DNA of 64,000 nucleotides, taken from positions 34,423,330 through 34,487,329 of the forward strand of contig OZ038392.1 of the NCBI GenBank assembly GCA_964036045.1, read 5' to 3'. The stretch comes from Eutreptiella sp. 'Long Island Sound 2002' (taxonomy: Eukaryota; Euglenozoa; Euglenophyceae; Eutreptiales; Eutreptiaceae). Of the stretch, positions 26,548-49,091 are shown in pieces. How positions within the stretch are numbered: position 1 is the stretch's first letter; each line of letters opens with the position of its first letter. Below the pieces are notes generated by a model that worked only from the letters and a program-made list of their open reading frames with translations, made no database searches and was not told the DNA's origin. The position numbers were made by a program, and so were the translations under genes.

Positions 26548-26565
26548 GTTGTTTCGTTGTTCGTT
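26548..26565. repeat. Target-site duplication of LINE-C, left copy
   Basis: GTTGTTTCGTTGTTCGTT (18 bp) is repeated exactly at 35017-35034. The sequence between them is LINE-C, and joining the outer flanks rebuilds a unit of the local tandem repeat. Confidence 0.9.
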
Positions 26566-26952
26566 TTTGCACTGAACGGCGCCTTTTGTGGCTGGCCAGG
26601 CCGGGGAGAAAGGCTCTTGCGCGCCAAGCTTTTTTGGGGAGGGGCGGGAGCCCGAAATCAAGTTCAATCGCGGGCTGAGTACCGCTGCACGTTGCTGTCC
26701 TCGTCTGCTTCATCTCAAAGAGACTTGGCAGCCCCGTTATAGACAACCGCAGGCCGGGGTCTCCGCTTGATACCCGAAGGCGGTGTGGTTGCGGATTGGG
26801 GGTTAGAGCATGACGGCTTGAGCACGGGGGGTGGCTTGGGGGAGGGATTCATTTGCAGAAGTGACTGGTGAGTGCCAGTGTGGTAGTACTGATTGATCGC
26901 GCCGCTAGGGCTGTCGAGGGTCGGCGTGAGAAAATGTGTAAGTGTGGCTTTT
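26566..26952 (-). other. LINE-C 3' UTR
   Basis: Non-coding sequence after the ORF2 stop. The minus strand ends ...GTGCAAA against the target duplication, whose first bases add two more A, so the tail is a run of about five A. No strong structure was noted by eye. It would be the region recognised by the element's RT during target-primed synthesis. Confidence 0.7.
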
Positions 26953-29900
26953 TCAAAGAGATGACACGTTGGACGAGTGTGAGGACGATTGTGAGTTTGT
27001 ACTCGCGGGGGAGGGGGGGGCTGGTGCGAAGTACCTTGTTATGCGAGGAGAAGGGGCGGAAATGGGGGCGGAGGCGGCGAGGGGGGGTGCTGGTCTAGGG
27101 GGGGGGGGGAGGTTGAACATGTCCCTGATTGTGAGCGGCCGTTTGGGGGGCGGAGGCTCTGGCTGGGGTTGACTTGCGGTACCGCGTTTCAGTGATAGAG
27201 GCCGGACGGGCCTTGGGGGCTGGCGGCCGTGTTTTCGAGTTTTGGTGTGTGCCGCAGGAGATGGGGGGCGGGGGCGTTTTGGGGGCTTGTGTGCAACTTT
27301 GTCCGGGAGGGGGGGGGGAGGGTGGTAGGCGGGGGGGGGGCGTTGTTGGGCGGTGTGCGACGTGCTGTAGGGCGACCAGGGGCGTCCCCATGAGTTGGGG
27401 CCCGTAGGGGGGGTGAGCGGGGCTGGGGGGGGGTGGTCTTTTAGCCATTCCAGCGTGCGGTATAGGGCGCTGAGGAGCAGGGGAACACGATCCTTCAGGG
27501 CGAGTGTTAAGTCGTGACAGTGTGCTGGTTTTCTTCGGCCGGAGGGGGGGGTTGTGAGTTTGGTGTACAGCGTCATGGGAACAAGCCCTCGGACGAAATT
27601 GCGTCTCTCCCCCACGTGTGTGGTCGCGGACCACCATTGGGACACCACCGTGGTGAAGGGGGGGCGCCAGCATTGAATGTAGGATTGGACCAGGTGTTCG
27701 CACGTTGGGCAGTGTGAGACGAAAGAGATAACATCCATCGGGTGCGGGTCGGGGCAAGCGTGGCAATGGCGAGGGCGCAAGTCGTCGTGGAAAGCAAATG
27801 GCGCCATGTTGAAATTTCCGGAGGACCATTTGAAAGGGAGGCCTTTGAACCACGAAGTGTGATTGTAAAAATGGAAGCTGGACGGTGCGTGGATGTTTTC
27901 GTGTTTGTGGCGAGGGAGGAGATGCTTGATTGAGGTTGTAGTCAATTTGTGTATGACTGGGAGGGGGCCCCTGGATATGCACCCTATCGGGGGGGGGGGA
28001 AGGAGGGAGGGGTCCCAGACCATCACGTGGGCGGCCCACTTTGAGTAAGCATCTGAGATTTCATTCCCCACGAACCCGGCGTGCCCCTTGATCCACCCCC
28101 AACCCTGGATCATCCCTGGGCGTAGGGAGGCCTGGATGGACTGGAGAGAGGATTCCCACGTGCCGGCTGGCGAGCGTGATGGGAGGCCTGGGGGGGTGTT
28201 CGGAGAGAGAACAGTGATAACGTGGAGGTTGTCCCCTAGCACGGCGAAGGTGAGGTGCGGGTGAGATGCAAGGGCCCACCGTAGGAACATAATAGCGGCC
28301 CAGAACTCCGATCCCTCTGATGACTGGTACGGGGACGTTTGGCACAGTACCCATCTGGAGCCATTTGGAAAAAACAGGGTGGCCGCCGATCCGTAGCCCA
28401 AGGCGCCCGCTGAGCCATCCAAGTACACCCATGTCGTGCCGGGGGACGATGCGAGGAGGAGGGCAAGGGCTGCTTCACAACCCCATTCTTCGAGGTCGTC
28501 GGGGTCAAGGGAGTGAGGTTCATCTGGGAGCCGGTACAGCTCGCCATGCAGTGACGAGTCGAGTAGGACCCCGCTGTATGGCCCGGGGGGGGGGTTGAGG
28601 ATGTACTTTTGAGGGTGAAGAAGGGGGGGGGTGAGCAGTTCGTGGCGCCCCGCCAGTTGAGGGAGGACAGAAATGGCTGGGTTTTGAAAGGTGTATTCTT
28701 TCTCGTTGCGGTGGAGACCGGGGTTTTTGATGGTGTGGGTGGTGCCGTCCGAAAACTGGAGTGTGGCCGATTCTGAGTGCACTTCCGTGACTGTACCTAG
28801 GTGGAACCCCAGGTCCTGGGGCGTCCGTTTTAATCTGTTGCCGAACTTGCTGTATTGTGGTGCCGGCTTGGTGGCTAGGAACCGGACCTGGACTTTTTCT
28901 TTTGGGAGGAAAAGGGAGGGGGGGCAGGAGGCCCAGAGGCCGGTGCTGTGGTATCGGAAGCCTATGGCGTGGCATGCGTCCATGATGGTGTCTTGGATTG
29001 GGTTGCGTGTGGTGGAGAGCATTGCTTCGGAAAAAGATTCGTTTGTCGAGGCCGGGCCGTCTCCGTTGAGGTACCTTATTGCGGTGTTTACCAGGGCCAT
29101 GCAAATTGAAAAAGTGAAGTGGCGGAGTCCTAAGCCTCCCTGGTGGCGAGGGGTGTAGCGGGCCTTAGGGGAGACGAGGCGGGAGATCCTGTTGGCTCTG
29201 TCCGGGGAGGGGTCATGCGCAACATTTTGCCAGATCATGGCCTGAAGGGCCCCCAACTCGTTCAGGGCCAGAGGGTGTGCCATGAGGCGGTAGGAAAGAA
29301 TAGGGATGAGTTGGACGTTCACCAAGAGAATGTATTCCGAAAGGGTGAGCTGGAGGGGTTGGAGGGTTGTGAAAAATGAGCGTATTTCCGACTTGGCCAA
29401 TGCCAGTGTTTGTGCCTCATGGTTGGCGGTGAAGATGTATACCCCTAGGTATTTGTAGCAATTGTGTGGTTGCCCCGTCTTTTGGTTTGTTGTCGACAGG
29501 GGGGTGCCCGAGGGGGAGGTGAAGGTTCTGGGGGGAGCTGCTCCCATAGCGTGGATCTCGGTTTTGCTGAGGTTAAGGTCTAGACCCCACTCCCTGGCGA
29601 CCGTGTCGAAGAAGTTTAAAACTTGCTGTATGCGGTCCCCATTCTCTGATCGATAGAGGAGGTCGTCAACAAAGGCGTGGCCCGATTCGTGTGGGGAGGG
29701 GGGTGCAGTGACGTGGGACGGCAAGGCGAAGAGGAGCACATTCAGGTAGAGGCAGAAAAGGATTGGTGACATGGGGCATCCTTGCCGAACGCCTCTGGTT
29801 TGCAGGTGTGAGGAGTGGGTTTGACCTGACACCACTGGGAAGTCGCGAGGGGCACGGTACAAGGATTGAATGAGGTTTACAAGGGGCGTAGGAAAGTTCA

Positions 29901-31866
29901 GGCGGGATAGAACTGTGAAGAGGGTGGTGTGGGGGACGGAGTTAAAAGCCTTATTGAAATCAATGTAGAGGCTGTAGCTACCGACCGATTCCCGAAACGT
30001 GGATAAGAGGTTGAAAATGTGGTCCTGGCATCTGCGGTTCGGAAGCCCGCCGAACTGGGTGGGGTGTATGATGGAATGTTCAATGGCCGCTGCCAGTAGC
30101 TCTCGGTTGGCGTGTGTTGCAATTATTTTGTAAACGCTGTTCAGCAAGGCTATAGGCCTGTAATTTACCGGGTTCATCACGTCCCCTTTCTTAAAAAGCA
30201 AGATAATGTTGGCTTCGAGCCATTTCTCGGGCAACGGCCGGTGGAGGTAGTAGTTGCATACCGTCCAAATGAATTGTTGGATAGGGGGGGGGGAGACGTG
30301 CAAAGTGTAGTTGTTTGTGAAGTCCCGCCCCCCCGCCTTGTTGGGCTTGGACCTCTTAAGCGTGTTGCGTAACGATTCCCAGGTAATGTCAGGGAGGAGG
30401 CCGTGTTTTGTGGGTTCGGGGCAGGCGGGGGAGTGTGCGAGTAGGCGATCCACTAGAGTGTTCGGCGGTGCGTATTCGAGGCTGCCCCCCAGGGTGAGGA
30501 GTGTAGAAGAGAAAATAGAGCCCACTTCTTTGGGGGTGGAGACGAGCTGTGTGGTGCCCGGGCGCTTCAGTGTTATTTCACCTCGTTCCACGGGGTTGAG
30601 CGCCTCGTTGATGGTGCGTTTGATCCTAGTTTTCCTCACTAGGCACCGATGGATGTTGGTGGTTGCGGCCTTGTTCACTTTGGTTTCCCACTCCTTGACG
30701 AGTTTGTTGAGTGTGTCCATGGAAGCGGGGTAGTTGGGATGGCTGGGGGGGGGCAGGGTTTGCAGGGACTCTTTGATTTTCTTTACCAGAGCCGAGGAGG
30801 TAGGGCGTGACGGCGTGGTGATACTGTGGTAGCTGGTCGCCACTTCCTCCAGCACGACGTCTGTGAAAAGCTCGATGTCCGCCGAGGACAAGGACCCAAA
30901 GCGGGGGAGGGTAGACTCGCACCACCGCGCCAGGGGGGCAAGGGAGTCGTGGTGCTTGGAGCGTTCCCGCTCCGTCAGTTTTCGGAAAACTTTCCTCTTA
31001 GTTGTGGGAGCTTCGGTAAAAGGGTGAGGGGGGACTTGAGAGGTGTACGTGACTGGGTGGTGGTCTGACGTTTTGTCGTCGGTTTGGATGGTTGCAGAGG
31101 TGGGGGCAAAAAATTCCGAGGCCGCCGGGGAGAGCAAAATATGGTCAAGGCGGCTACTGCTTGCCCTGTACGGGGTGGGGTATCGGGAGAAGGACCGCTC
31201 GGTCGGGTGAAAGTGCCGAAAGGTATCGATGAGGCGCGGCGGGTCGCTCGTGATCTGTCTGCGAAGCCACGGCCATTCGTTGTCCGTTTGGAGGTTCGAT
31301 CCGTCTAGTTCAGGGCACATTATGCAATTGGTGTCCCCACCGAGGACGTGGTTAGGATACTGATGCATGAGTGGCCGTAGGATGTTTTCAATTTTTGAGC
31401 GGTGGACGTCCGTGCTTGGGGCGTATACCGAGACCAGCAAGGTGGGCGGGGCCCCCGGGAGAGTGAGAACGGCTGCCGCCAGCATCCCTTCTGTATCTAG
31501 TCGGGGAAGGGGGGTAACGAAGCGGGAGAGCCGGGGGGAACAGACCAAGACGGAACCATGCTCGCCTCTGGAGTGTTTGTCTTGGCTGATATTCGAAACG
31601 ATGGTGGCTTTAGTGCCCGAACCGTAGGCGTATACGTGGGGGAGGATGGGGGCGTGATTGATTTCTTGGAGGAAGAGGATGTCGAAGTCGTTCTTGAGGT
31701 GTCGGAGAATTTGGCTGCTCACTATGGGTTTCTTCTGCAAGTTGTGGGATAGAAACCGCAGTTCTGAAGGGAGGGGTATGGGGGGGCGGTGAGGCCGTTG
31801 GTAACCCTTCCGTAGGCGCGTTTTGGATCTCGGGGGGGGCGGGATAGGGGGGGGCTGGGGGGGCAC
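26953..31866 (-). CDS. LINE-C ORF2: APE endonuclease, reverse transcriptase, RNase H, Cys/His segment
   Basis: The frame of 1637 residues is uninterrupted. Endonuclease spans about 36-275: SHNLQ, LFLQEIN (E68), LGGDTN (D178), RLDHIL (D241), TSDHHPV (S267-H269). RT spans about 550-800: YIDFNKAF (D636), GVRQGCPMSP, AFVDDL (D734-D735). RNase H spans about 1145-1280: YLDGS (D1150), SEFWA (E1187), GDNLH (D1212) and WIKGHAGFVGNEISDA (D1272). A Cys/His cluster follows (CHACPDPH...HCPTC, about 1368-1389), then a Pro-rich tail. It should nick the target and reverse-transcribe the element RNA; RNase H would remove the template. The first codon shown is GTG. The frame stays open upstream to about 32003 with no nearby ATG, so the start is uncertain and may rely on reinitiation after ORF1. 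Confidence 0.92.
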   Translation of the reverse strand: MPPQPPPIPPPPRSKTRLRKGYQRPHRPPIPLPSELRFLSHNLQKKPIVSSQILRHLKNDFDILFLQEINHAPILPHVYAYGSGTKATIVSNISQDKHSRGEHGSVLVCSPRLSRFVTPLPRLDTEGMLAAAVLTLPGAPPTLLVSVYAPSTDVHRSKIENILRPLMHQYPNHVLGGDTNCIMCPELDGSNLQTDNEWPWLRRQITSDPPRLIDTFRHFHPTERSFSRYPTPYRASSSRLDHILLSPAASEFFAPTSATIQTDDKTSDHHPVTYTSQVPPHPFTEAPTTKRKVFRKLTERERSKHHDSLAPLARWCESTLPRFGSLSSADIELFTDVVLEEVATSYHSITTPSRPTSSALVKKIKESLQTLPPPSHPNYPASMDTLNKLVKEWETKVNKAATTNIHRCLVRKTRIKRTINEALNPVERGEITLKRPGTTQLVSTPKEVGSIFSSTLLTLGGSLEYAPPNTLVDRLLAHSPACPEPTKHGLLPDITWESLRNTLKRSKPNKAGGRDFTNNYTLHVSPPPIQQFIWTVCNYYLHRPLPEKWLEANIILLFKKGDVMNPVNYRPIALLNSVYKIIATHANRELLAAAIEHSIIHPTQFGGLPNRRCQDHIFNLLSTFRESVGSYSLYIDFNKAFNSVPHTTLFTVLSRLNFPTPLVNLIQSLYRAPRDFPVVSGQTHSSHLQTRGVRQGCPMSPILFCLYLNVLLFALPSHVTAPPSPHESGHAFVDDLLYRSENGDRIQQVLNFFDTVAREWGLDLNLSKTEIHAMGAAPPRTFTSPSGTPLSTTNQKTGQPHNCYKYLGVYIFTANHEAQTLALAKSEIRSFFTTLQPLQLTLSEYILLVNVQLIPILSYRLMAHPLALNELGALQAMIWQNVAHDPSPDRANRISRLVSPKARYTPRHQGGLGLRHFTFSICMALVNTAIRYLNGDGPASTNESFSEAMLSTTRNPIQDTIMDACHAIGFRYHSTGLWASCPPSLFLPKEKVQVRFLATKPAPQYSKFGNRLKRTPQDLGFHLGTVTEVHSESATLQFSDGTTHTIKNPGLHRNEKEYTFQNPAISVLPQLAGRHELLTPPLLHPQKYILNPPPGPYSGVLLDSSLHGELYRLPDEPHSLDPDDLEEWGCEAALALLLASSPGTTWVYLDGSAGALGYGSAATLFFPNGSRWVLCQTSPYQSSEGSEFWAAIMFLRWALASHPHLTFAVLGDNLHVITVLSPNTPPGLPSRSPAGTWESSLQSIQASLRPGMIQGWGWIKGHAGFVGNEISDAYSKWAAHVMVWDPSLLPPPPIGCISRGPLPVIHKLTTTSIKHLLPRHKHENIHAPSSFHFYNHTSWFKGLPFKWSSGNFNMAPFAFHDDLRPRHCHACPDPHPMDVISFVSHCPTCEHLVQSYIQCWRPPFTTVVSQWWSATTHVGERRNFVRGLVPMTLYTKLTTPPSGRRKPAHCHDLTLALKDRVPLLLSALYRTLEWLKDHPPPAPLTPPTGPNSWGRPWSPYSTSHTAQQRPPPAYHPPPPLPDKVAHKPPKRPRPPSPAAHTKTRKHGRQPPRPVRPLSLKRGTASQPQPEPPPPKRPLTIRDMFNLPPPPRPAPPLAASAPISAPSPRITRYFAPAPPSPASTNSQSSSHSSNVSSL

Positions 31867-32083
31867 TGGGGAGCCGGGTTGGCTGGGCTGGCTAAGGCAA
31901 AGAAAGTGCTGAATTTGGTCGGCCGGTATCCCGGCCGAGGTGAGCTCGTCGTCTAGCCCCTTGCCTGTGATGGTGGAAGCCGTGACTGGGCCGGTGGTTC
32001 ACTGAATCTTGGCCCTTTTGTGTTCAGGTAGAGGGGGCTGGACAGTGCAGGAGGCGGGTACCCGGCCCTCTGGCTTTCGTGGG

Positions 32084-34795
32084 TTAGCTTGCCTGTGGTA
32101 TGTGTCGGAGGATTAGAGCGAGGCGAGGGACGGTACGAGGGACGGTTAGCCCAAACACTTCGTCTTCTCTCCGTCGAGGTATACCGTGGTGCCACTCATG
32201 GCGTGCGGCCCCCGTGAGGACCAGGAGAGAGCGGGCAAACAGGCGGATGCGAAAGGAGTCCCCGTTGGAGGGGTTCTTAAAGAACATTGTGGTGTCCGAT
32301 TGGGAACCAAAAATGGACACTGGGTCGCCTAGCAAGGGGTCGTCCCCGTGGTAGCCGATGCCCTCTCCCGGGAGATACATTGTGCCCGTGATTTGGTTGG
32401 GAGGAGGGTGTGAGAGGCCTAGCCGCTCCAGCGCGGCATTGTAGGTTTGGAGGATGGAGGAAAACTCTTCCGGGATGGGGGACGTGGCGGCGACTTTGCT
32501 CGGGCCGAGGTATGCGTGGCCGAAGTGTTGGACTGAGCGCCCGTGGTACTTCTCCCACGTGTTGTCGTGGAGAATCTTTTTTACCGTTTCCTCTTGGCTT
32601 TCGGAGAATACGTCGCGGACGTAATAAAAACCAGCGGGGAGGCGGGGGTCGATTTGAATATCCGAGGCGGGGGTGGGGGCACCGTGGTCGGGGGGTAGGA
32701 GGGTGGTCGCCTCGCCTCCTAGTGGAGCAAGCAGCGGGACGCTGGTCTCGGACATCTCTTCGATGCGGCTTGGTCCCGGCGTTGGCGTAGCGGCGCCGGC
32801 GTCCTCCGGTGCCGCGTTCCACTCGCTGATGCGCTCAGTCAGCCCCGTAGCGGGCCTTTCACGAAGGGCGGTGACAAGTTGGGACACGAAGGCCGTGGAC
32901 CCCAAGGCGGCTCCCGCTTGGAGGCGCTGCACTATGGGTTGCTCGTGCTCGGCCACATCCGGGTCTTGAGCGGGGAGGACCTTCTCGAGGGCGATGAGGT
33001 TGCGGTGTAGTGGGGCAAAGGCAGCGTCTCCATATTTGAAATCATGCGCTAGCAGCGCGGATTCTCCTTTTTCGTAGACCACGAGGTAGGCTTGTTGGTG
33101 TTCGTAGGGAGGCCGCGTGGGCTCGAACGACACGTACGGGCCAAGAAACCCCGCTTGGACGCGCAAGTCGAGAGCGTGCGCCGATCTTGGGGCCACTAGG
33201 AGCACGGCGGTCTTCGGGGCCTTAGATGAGTCGTATGAGGGCGGGGCCGGCGTCGCGTGGGCTCGCTCGGGGGCGCCCGAAGGCGCGGACCTCGCGTTGC
33301 CGTCGGATCGTGACGAGAACCGCACTAATTGCCCATCTATGCCATGAAAGAGGACAATGCCGCATGAGTGGAAGAAGCGGATAGCTAACGTTTGGACACC
33401 GGTCTTCATGACGTCGCACGGCGCGTGAGTGGTGTCAATCGCCACTACCAAGGAATCTTTAGACCGGAACATCGCTCCTAGGGGCGGTGAGGCGCCCCGT
33501 CCACCGGGCAGGTTGGCGATCATCATGGTGAGCATTTCCGGAGCTTGTAGGTCTTTGTTTCTTTCCTTTCGGTCCCTAGCGATCACGGCTCGATACACTT
33601 CGGTAGTCGGCAAAGCGTGCATGTCCATTGCAAGGAGTTCTCCGGTGAGGAATTGGGCGCACTCTCGGACCTTAAACATGAGCTCGTCGGCAAAGCGAGA
33701 TGGGAGTTCCCAATCAAACCGGTAGTAGGCCCAATGCGGGCTCTCGGAAGGGACTATGTGGCCAAACGGGTAGTAGGCATTTTTGGTGTTCACCGATACG
33801 TTTGCTAGCGCGGGGACAAACATTTCGTTCATTAACTTCATGAAAGCACGGGCGTCTCCAATTTTGCGTTGCCTTGGTTTAGTTTTATCTCTCTCTTCCG
33901 GCGGTGAAGGCTCAATGTGATCAAGGAATTCTATGCTCACCTCAAAACGTAGTGTTTTGTGCAACCGGAGGTCTCGCACCGTTGGATGGGCGTGCTTGGC
34001 GGCGAAGCGGAAAGGTTCAAACTTAAAATTGATGTCTTCATATCGGCACCCGTCAAAGGAAGAGGTGTTTAGGAGCAAGGCAACATACGGCATCGTTTGA
34101 TGGCCGCTCGTGCGGAACTCGTAGGAGTCTTTGCCGTCCCTTTTGACCTTGTAGGCGTCCCGGAGTTGCGCCCCGTGCATACATATCACGCTAGAAATGT
34201 ACGGAAGAAGAGGAAAAAGGGCGGAAGTTGAGCCTAGCATGCGAAAGGTGGCGGCAACCACTTGAGCGTCCCACGCCGGAATAACGAACCATCCTTTGAG
34301 GTCTTTGTTCTCTTCTTTGGCTTTATCTAGCACGGTTCTTAATTGTTTAGCCCACGGGGTGGCGGTGGGTGGAGACTCCTTGGCTTCGGCTTGGGAATAG
34401 TCCAACTCATACGGCTTTAGGTAGAAACGCTTGTGCTTGAACAAAAGCTTTTCGAGCTCGTTGTAGTTATTGTGCGCAACGGAAGAGACCCTACCTCGAT
34501 CTAGAATTTCCGTGGAGTTGCTCCCAACGAAGGCGGATTGAATATCGGTGCCTTCCACATCCAGGTAAAACTCGGAGTAGTCTTGTAGTCGGCGGTAGAC
34601 TTCGGGAACGAAAATGCGTTGGCGTGTGTCAAATATTTTGCCCTCAATGGCTTCAAGTTGGCGTGACGGAAAGCGTGTTTGCAACGGCGAATTTGAGGCT
34701 TGGTGTTTTTGAAAGAGGTGTGACGGAGAATAGTTGAATAGCGTTGAAAGGCCATCATCGGCGGCTTTGGAGCTTCCAAATAGGGTGAAATTCAT
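32084..34795 (-). CDS. LINE-C ORF1: unrecognised N-terminal region plus C-terminal AlkB-like dioxygenase
   Basis: From the ATG at 34795 (MNFTLFGSS) the frame gives 903 residues. It is also open upstream through the spliced leader, but only with a GTG, so the ATG is the better start. Residues 1 to about 715 contain no family I recognise; a Pro/Ala/Thr-rich linker precedes the final domain. Residues about 722-903 fit AlkB: a TMYLPGEGIGYHGDD segment gives the HxD iron ligands (H816, D818), HEWHHGIP gives the distal His (H870), and RLALILR gives two Arg six apart (R891, R897). This is the spacing of the Arg pair in E. coli AlkB. AlkB enzymes remove alkyl groups from nucleic-acid bases using 2-oxoglutarate and Fe(II). 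In a LINE it could demethylate or repair the element RNA. That role is inference. Confidence 0.88.
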   Translation of the reverse strand: MNFTLFGSSKAADDGLSTLFNYSPSHLFQKHQASNSPLQTRFPSRQLEAIEGKIFDTRQRIFVPEVYRRLQDYSEFYLDVEGTDIQSAFVGSNSTEILDRGRVSSVAHNNYNELEKLLFKHKRFYLKPYELDYSQAEAKESPPTATPWAKQLRTVLDKAKEENKDLKGWFVIPAWDAQVVAATFRMLGSTSALFPLLPYISSVICMHGAQLRDAYKVKRDGKDSYEFRTSGHQTMPYVALLLNTSSFDGCRYEDINFKFEPFRFAAKHAHPTVRDLRLHKTLRFEVSIEFLDHIEPSPPEERDKTKPRQRKIGDARAFMKLMNEMFVPALANVSVNTKNAYYPFGHIVPSESPHWAYYRFDWELPSRFADELMFKVRECAQFLTGELLAMDMHALPTTEVYRAVIARDRKERNKDLQAPEMLTMMIANLPGGRGASPPLGAMFRSKDSLVVAIDTTHAPCDVMKTGVQTLAIRFFHSCGIVLFHGIDGQLVRFSSRSDGNARSAPSGAPERAHATPAPPSYDSSKAPKTAVLLVAPRSAHALDLRVQAGFLGPYVSFEPTRPPYEHQQAYLVVYEKGESALLAHDFKYGDAAFAPLHRNLIALEKVLPAQDPDVAEHEQPIVQRLQAGAALGSTAFVSQLVTALRERPATGLTERISEWNAAPEDAGAATPTPGPSRIEEMSETSVPLLAPLGGEATTLLPPDHGAPTPASDIQIDPRLPAGFYYVRDVFSESQEETVKKILHDNTWEKYHGRSVQHFGHAYLGPSKVAATSPIPEEFSSILQTYNAALERLGLSHPPPNQITGTMYLPGEGIGYHGDDPLLGDPVSIFGSQSDTTMFFKNPSNGDSFRIRLFARSLLVLTGAARHEWHHGIPRRREDEVFGLTVPRTVPRLALILRHIPQAS

Positions 34796-34989
34796 GGTGT
34801 TTTCGGGATGAACGAAAAGGTGGCTTGGCGTCAATTGAAAGATTGCGAGCGTGGATTTGAACTCGGGAATTGAGATGATGATTTGAAAACTGCGGGAAAG
34901 GCTCCAGAACTTGAACAGCCCAGGATTTTCTCCAATCACCGAATAGCCTGGACTACTGGTGGATCCATCAACAAAATGCTGAGGGTCAA

Positions 34990-35016
34990 TCGAAAAAAAA
35001 ATAGACACTCAGAAAG
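34990..35016 (-). other. Spliced-leader sequence at the extreme 5' end of LINE-C
   Basis: The minus strand reads ACTTTCTGAGTGTCTA, nine T, CG, and its first base abuts the 18-bp target duplication. From memory this is the Euglena gracilis SL exon (26 nt, eight T) with one extra T. An identical 26-nt form with eight T lies at 48382-48407. In SL RNA genes the leader is followed by a GT donor. Here it is followed by ATTGACC, so this is a copied, already trans-spliced junction and not an SL RNA gene. Confidence 0.85.
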
Positions 35017-35034
35017 TGTTGTTTCGTTGTTCGT
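35017..35034. repeat. Target-site duplication of LINE-C, right copy
   Basis: Exact 18-bp copy of 26548-26565, immediately outside the leader-bearing 5' end of LINE-C. Confidence 0.9.
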
Positions 35035-35300
35035 TGTTGTGTGTGGCGTTGTCCCTTTGGCGCCCTCCTTCACAACATACTTGGCTTCTTCACCTACGCA
35101 CATGTTGCGGGGGTTGCATGGGCTCGTAACATACTTGTTTGCCATACCTTTGTTTCCCCGTGGTCCGCGGCCGTTGGCGTGTGGTCCTTCGTGGTTTGTG
35201 TGTGGTGGTGTTTCGTGGTTTCTTTGTTGTTGGTTTTGTGCCTCTCCCTTTATTTTGTTTCCCCCCCCCCCTTTTTTTTTTCACGCCTACAAGCCGCCTA
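35035..35300. repeat. Continuation of the 25.6-26.5 kb tandem repeat after LINE-C
   Basis: Contains the same boxes in the same order as the units before LINE-C: CCCTTTGGCGCCCTCCTTC, AACATACTTG, TTGCGGGGGTTGC and TTGTTTGCCATACC. It is followed by a pyrimidine-rich stretch (C9 then T9 near 35263) and a short spacer to 35395. Confidence 0.75.
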
Positions 35301-48240: not shown

Positions 48241-48245
48241 TCTAT

Positions 48246-48584
48246 GTCTATTTGTGGTGGTGATATTGGTGAAGTGACACACACGCCCCACTTTTGCAAA
48301 ATAAAATCCACCAAGGTTCCCGAATGCACCCAATGCACAATGGAGGTCACGAGGTATACCGCAAAGGCGAAATTCAAATCCACTTTCTGAGTGTCTATTT
48401 TTTTTCGATAAGCACAAGATGACATTATGTTATCAATATTTCAGAAGTGGATTTGAATTTGGCCTTTGCGGTATACCTCGTGACCTCCATTGTGCATTGG
48501 GTGCATTCGGGAACCTTGGTGGATTTTATTTTGCAAAAGTGGGGCGTGTGTGTCACTTCACCAATATCACCACCACAAATAGAC
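48246..48584. repeat. Snap-back inverted repeat flanking a spliced leader (136-bp arms)
   Basis: 48246-48381 is the reverse complement of 48449-48584, equal in length (136 nt) and nearly identical (one substitution noted, at about 48370). Between them lie the SL (48382-48407) and 41 nt that include CAGAAGT (48442-48448) directly before the right arm. The SL begins ACTTTCTG, whose complement CAGAAAGT nearly matches CAGAAGT. This is the geometry expected if a cDNA end folded back and primed on itself. Confidence 0.9.
48382..48407 (+). other. Spliced-leader sequence of a retrocopy
   Basis: Exactly ACTTTCTGAGTGTCTA plus eight T and CG, 26 nt, matching my recollection of the Euglena gracilis SL exon. 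It is followed by ATAAGCACAAG with no GT donor, so it is a mature trans-splice junction copied into DNA. Confidence 0.85.
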
Positions 48585-49091
48585 ACCAAGATAACAATCT
48601 TGTGCTTATCGGTGTGACGAGACACGTCCCCTTTGGGTTTATCAAGGCTTTGGACATTTCAAGAAGGGTGCTTGCTTTCTATTTCTTTTGCAATGAGCGA
48701 ATCGGTGCAATATCACGACGAGCAAGCCTCACAATCCATTGATTGTCAAGATGCATCGGTTACAACGAAGGTAATCACGGAGAAAGGTCGGCAATTTGAT
48801 TCGTCTATTGAGGCACTACTCGATGCCCTACAGGACCAATACGTGACGCCGACTCAACACGCTTCGGTTGACAAATCCGGAGATGTGTTACAACGCATGA
48901 CACCGAATCAAGAGTATAAGAAGCTTGTGCAACGTGTTGAAAAATTGGAACAAGAGCCAATGGAGAGCGAACATGATAAGGCCATTTCTTGCACTTCCCC
49001 CAACCCATTGTGGGCTACCTATTTGATTCAAAAAAATTATTTTCTTGAACCCACTCCCTATTTCGAGGTCGCTCGACTCGAATTTGCATGA
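48408..49091 (+). pseudogene. Retrocopy of a trans-spliced transcript with a 132-codon ORF
   Basis: Following the leader is a 285-nt 5' UTR-like stretch and an ATG at 48693 (MSESVQYHDEQASQ) open to TGA 49089-49091. The ORF is hydrophilic, with a short predicted coiled-coil segment (EYKKLVQRVEKLEQEP), and merges with the satellite at its end, so its natural C-terminus is doubtful. Function unknown. ATAAGCACAAGAT after the leader is complemented by ATCTTGTGCTTAT at 48597-48609, so the transcript could fold on itself. No introns were noticed, as expected of a retrocopy. Confidence 0.5.

Follow-up and report, generated by a model that had tools for sequence, protein, structure and literature searches.

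The 64,000-nucleotide stretch of DNA analysed here (the window) contains a LINE, LINE-C, whose first bases are those of the host spliced leader (SL), and it arose from an RNA that bore the SL at the 5' end and was reverse-copied all the way to it. The best explanation of the data as a whole, which we hold with moderate confidence, is a target-primed LINE with a host-SL 5' end that is mostly inherited and with messages that would be spliced at a downstream CAG.

Read on the minus strand, LINE-C begins at base 1 with ACTTTCTGAGTGTCTA, followed by T9 and CG. A 16-mer of this SL occurs twice in the window against 0.03 expected, and the 18-bp duplication GTTGTTTCGTTGTTCGTT is exact on both sides of the element (0.00 expected), touching the SL at one end and the 3' end ...GTTCAGTGCAAA at the other (Table 1). 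The SL is followed by ATTGACC and not by a GT donor, the continuing sequence being ATTGACCCTCAGCATTTTG. The sequence therefore confirms the arrangement given in a preliminary description of this DNA, in which the SL opens the minus strand flush with the duplication. ORF2 matches PF03372 and PF00078 above cut-off, and its RNase H match (PF00075) reaches 22.9 bits, under the cut-off of 25.8. An AP-type endonuclease and a reverse transcriptase in a single ORF are features of APE-type non-LTR retrotransposons, and the variable duplications (11-18 bp) and short A tails of the copies are those of LINEs; the absence of LTRs was judged only from reading the two ends of LINE-C. By the features tested, the window element is a LINE. 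An AlkB-like 2OG-Fe(II) oxygenase domain was also detected near the C-terminus of ORF1 (PF13532, 31.9 bits against a cut-off of 31.2).

Table 1. Coordinates of LINE-C and its parts in the window
Feature	Position	Strand	Remarks
LINE (LINE-C), 8,452 bp	26566..35017	-	5' end 35017, 3' end ...GTTCAGTGCAAA at 26566; limits based on exact 18-bp duplications on both sides; L022 aligns full-length at 91%
Fossil spliced leader (SL), 27 nt, T9	34991..35017	-	Same exon as SL RNA genes except T8/T9
AC beyond fossil SL	35018..35019		RNA origin possible too
Target-site duplication, element 5' side	35018..35035	.	
Target-site duplication, element 3' side	26548..26565	.	
ATTGACCCTCAG	34979..34990	-	First 12 nt past SL; last 3 = CAG
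87-nt leader common to other LINE families	34904..34990	-	91% identical with L009 over SL plus 87 nt
ORF1	32084..35008	-	Open back into SL; first in-frame ATG 34795 (by eye)
ORF2, 1,637 aa	26953..31866	-	AP-endonuclease-type domain, reverse transcriptase, probable RNase H

The leader had been taken for the species' own SL, and comparison with the exon of the SL RNA genes agrees: the same exon stands before a GTATA donor in these genes, with T8 where the window copy has T9. A genome search for SL-T8-CG-GTATA at no more than 1 mismatch found 844+966 = 1,810 sites, many of them clustered among the matches listed, and the GTATA donor matches the SL RNA published for E. gracilis (PMC11170887). A 5S rRNA gene was found in both of the SL RNA gene loci scanned with Rfam. 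LINE-C thus has the species' SL exon at its 5' end and no donor GT, as does an SL-tagged retrocopy. A second SL of the window (T8; 48382-48407, plus strand), followed by GATAAGCACAAGATG, starts within an arm of an inverted repeat (141 nt, 99%; arms 48245-48385 and 48445-48585).

A search of the 2.28-Gb genome for the SL gave 5,279 matches at no more than 3 mismatches, SL genes included. One hundred places were listed, all with an exact T9 SL, and 89 were read (the window, L001-L003, L005-L029 and L038-L097; L004 is the same place as L009); four of the 89 are SL genes. The window copy is the sole one not drawn by the T9 SL, by which all of its relatives were chosen, and copies with T8 or without an SL lie outside this sample and may exist. 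Clustering of the DNA after the SL placed the LINE-C leader in 18 of the 89 loci, belonging to three LINE families: LINE-C itself (13 copies), a sister family (L009, L014, L051 and L061) and a third family represented by L076. In 17 of the 18 the SL meets the leader at the identical base, the exception being L051; L022 and L076 show a few differences in the bases next after the joint. Over their first 470 nt the bodies of the three families agree at about half of the positions, and LINE-C and L009 share 37% amino-acid identity in ORF2 and about 23% in ORF1, their nucleotide similarity ending directly after the SL and the 87-nt leader. That elements so divergent elsewhere have this leader in common points to a function located just downstream of the SL, and bears on the earlier idea of a 5' end defined without an internal promoter. 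The window copy, L094 and L041 are young, nearly identical copies (99.8-100% over the first 497 nt) which stand at separate sites and keep the joint. No leader copy without an SL was seen in all the DNA fetched, as expected for loci chosen via the SL. Within the leader, an upstream ORF of 10 codons (34936-34968, minus strand) is kept, by eye, in LINE-C and the L009 family, its ATG being lost in L013.

Among the other SL-headed loci, L010 and L023 have reverse-transcriptase or endonuclease frames downstream, and L007 and L008 an ORF1-like protein; L017 and L018 resemble, by eye, retrocopies of host genes. A common upstream flank is found in L019, L026, L028, L062, L067 and L085, and likewise in L024, L025, L039, L083 and L096. 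These two repeat families may be duplicated segments, the shared flank implying that their SL was multiplied as an internal part of a larger unit, not as its terminus.

Target duplications were read in seven LINE-C copies, the window's included, and in one copy of the sister family. Two of the copies were read whole: L022 has a 13-bp duplication and L013, which carries an internal deletion, one of 17 bp followed by GCAC versus CCAC. Probing of 351-bp pieces, which covered the expected 3' ends of the copies, found a tail and a duplication in four of eight further LINE-C copies (L041, L056, L077 and L094) and neither in the pieces from L040, L052, L065 and L081, nor in those from three copies of the sister family. 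In the latter family, a 15-bp duplication flanks L014. The candidate duplication of L015 is weaker (12 bp), and the stretch of L015 that was examined contained no 3' end of LINE-C. The seven LINE-C copies start with the SL at their duplications, as had been predicted, in a set of relatives selected throughout by the T9 SL. The constant joint in 17 of 18 copies and the target duplications in several of them mean that an SL-bearing RNA was copied to its end, and the earlier claim of a retrotransposed RNA that carried the SL and was copied to its 5' end holds, with the SL at base 1, the duplications and their repetition in the other copies in its favour.

That RNA end was probably AC-ACTTTC, two bases longer than the 27-nt SL. 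Four copies have extra bases between duplication and SL (AAC in L014, CAC in L077, AC in L094 and CTGCACAC in L041) which are missing from the 3' duplication and all end in AC, whereas in the flush copies (window, L022 and L056) the duplication itself ends in AC. AC also directly precedes ACTTTC in all eight SL RNA gene loci read (L030-L037), and the Eutreptiella SL has been described as 28 nt long and starting with ACAC (PMC3621762). It is from these three observations that we read the AC as RNA-derived, which would make the last two bases of the 18-bp duplication in the window ambiguous; the E. gracilis-type SL, of which a 26-nt exon is published, may likewise be 28 nt long. Against an AC end stands L015, where TCTC lies between the candidate duplication and the SL. 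Across 75 loci (the 89 minus 4 SL genes and 10 sharing flanks), the base before the SL is C in 66 (background 27%), and the two preceding bases are AC in 29 and TC in 24 (background 6.4% and 5.2%). In one cluster, all nine loci have TC. An AC belonging to the RNA leaves the TC enrichment without explanation. A pure target preference for C fails for the four copies whose extra bases end in AC, although it may contribute, TC also being enriched. The idea that LINEs have C before the SL and host-gene copies do not was dropped, many singletons having C.

The preliminary description further proposed that splicing renews the fossil SL carried by each new copy. This is only partly supported: re-splicing does occur, as L051 and L082 illustrate, but it leaves scars, and the clean copies lack an AG at the joint. 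Outrons of E. gracilis are reported to end in CAG (PMC11170887) and the genomic joint of a fossil-bearing copy reads CG|ATT, so that re-splicing cannot cleanly restore it. L051 reads SL, TGTCTATTTTTTTTCG, AAATTTATTGATGG, in which a first SL was joined after the leader CAG and a second after the AG inside the first; slippage is an unlikely substitute here, as the 12 nt ending in CAG are missing. In L082, of another family, the second SL was likewise added at the internal AG of the first. L064 carries two full SLs, the second starting five bases downstream, and L023 has a partial second SL which slippage could also explain. These tandem and partial tandem SLs record the addition of a second SL to a fossil one. 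The leader CAG and the AG inside the SL can thus both be used as splice sites. In 26 of 89 loci (17 in the leader group, 9 outside) the SL has a CAG no more than 12 nt away. Seventeen of the 18 LINE-C-type copies derive from RNAs spliced at neither site, of which the simplest reading is that the SL is in the DNA and is transcribed from its first base.

We propose that the RNA template carries the host SL, probably as AC-ACTTTC...CG, at its very 5' end, and would be copied to that end. The SL would have been captured once by trans-splicing and would now be mostly inherited as element DNA, with transcription beginning at the SL encoded there. A 3' splice site would be formed by the fossil T-tract together with the CAG, which lies 12 nt downstream here and 6-12 nt downstream in related leaders; the CAG in ATTGACCCTCAG of the window copy can serve as such, a role suggested by the same CAG being the joint of the older SL in L051. 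Two RNAs would result, a genomic one that stays unspliced and a capped message produced when the CAG is used for trans-splicing. Splicing at the CAG would yield SL-CATTTTG and splicing at the AG inside the fossil SL-TGTCTATT, occasional re-splicing being recorded as partial tandem SLs. Inheritance is favoured by the exact SL with its duplications, the constant joint, the joint lacking AG and the young copies which keep it. We suggest only tentatively that a euglenid LINE group has made the host SL its DNA-encoded, inherited 5' terminus, at once the start of the genomic RNA and, with T-tract and CAG, part of a splice site.

The main rival, a serious contender that nonetheless falls short of being probable, is that each cycle adds a fresh SL by trans-splicing, source loci keeping a native AG before ATTGACC and SL-headed copies being mostly dead ends. 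Trans-splicing is described as general in E. gracilis (PMC10679874, PMC11170887), as this rival needs, and the re-splicing scars of L051 and L082 speak for it. So does upstream DNA: L053 (C6:65625751, minus) and L076 (C10:66330700, minus), which belong to different LINE families, have about 250 bp in common immediately upstream of the SL, within which lies a TATAAAA-containing repeat that L014 and L029 possess too. This stretch may represent a promoter module or a target used by both; it could comprise the promoter and outron of source loci, which counts against inheritance. AG|ATTGACC is absent, but a sample picked by the T9 SL leaves such copies out. Further points against renewal are that the window copy has T9 where SL genes mostly have T8, and that the CAG in use sits 12 nt downstream of the joint.

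Template switching is within the abilities of LINE reverse transcriptases, and the enzyme might have jumped from the LINE RNA to SL RNA, or to an mRNA bearing the SL, as first-strand synthesis came to its end. Such jumps should give varied joints; this is made improbable by a joint that, in 17 of 18 loci, unites the exact 3' end of the SL exon with one and the same base of the leader. A LINE merely adjoining an SL RNA gene or pseudogene, or an assembly error at the joint, can practically be dismissed along with chance: SL genes are abundant in the genome, but no GTATA donor follows the SL, the exact duplications lie outside it, the same arrangement recurs at many separate sites, and the occurrence statistics speak against it.

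No special RNA fold was apparent, the first 150 nt being ordinary (z -0.76). Pairing of SL and leader over 45 nt amounts to -9.0 kcal/mol in LINE-C, -13.0 in the L009 type and -16.4 in L076, matched respectively by 1, 0 and 0 of 1000 shuffles and by 161, 3 and 0 of 3,560 genomic 18-mers; with 161 such matches, the LINE-C pairing alone is not striking. The pairing of L022 was matched by 31 of 1000 shuffles, and nothing was found in L008, L020 and L050.

A LINE must rebuild its own 5' end at every jump, and how it manages this with no promoter upstream is a long-standing question. Because the end of LINE-C comes from the host and its boundaries are known, the making of the RNA can be read from every jump, and the new copy lands with a host-like front end. 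The genomic SLs form a set on which SL length, the choice of splice sites and euglenid retroposition can be examined.

In the literature searched, no LINE was reported to have an SL as its genomic 5' terminus, though such a report may exist. The L1Tc/ingi elements of trypanosomatids are also Euglenozoan LINEs with a short 5' sequence, Pr77, common to several elements; they are described as having unspliced transcripts and an HDV-like ribozyme in the 5' module (PMC8190864, PMC4035085), whereas the 5' end of LINE-C is the SL. An HDV-like ribozyme was not found: Rfam gave no hit at gathering scores anywhere in the window, and none of this type up to E 5 in 34500-35050. Pr77 elements also have an internal promoter in their first 77 nt; what was seen in this region of LINE-C is conservation of the 87-nt leader. 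In Hydra, 30.9% and 29.7% of TE long reads are reported to carry a trans-spliced SL, described there at the RNA level and not as a genomic 5' end (PMC12220107). The closest parallel is the DinoSL-tagged retrogenes of dinoflagellates, in which SL-bearing mRNA was likewise reverse-transcribed, a fossil SL marks the copy, and tandem SLs record repeated rounds as in the LINE copies (PMC6050394, PMC7245778, PMC12014239). The DinoSL is given as ending in AG (CTCAAG) and the E. gracilis SL as ending in CG, so that the fossil here cannot be cleanly re-spliced at its own end. The tagged sequences described in dinoflagellates are host genes, whereas here it is the retrotransposon itself that is tagged, with the SL as its constant end.
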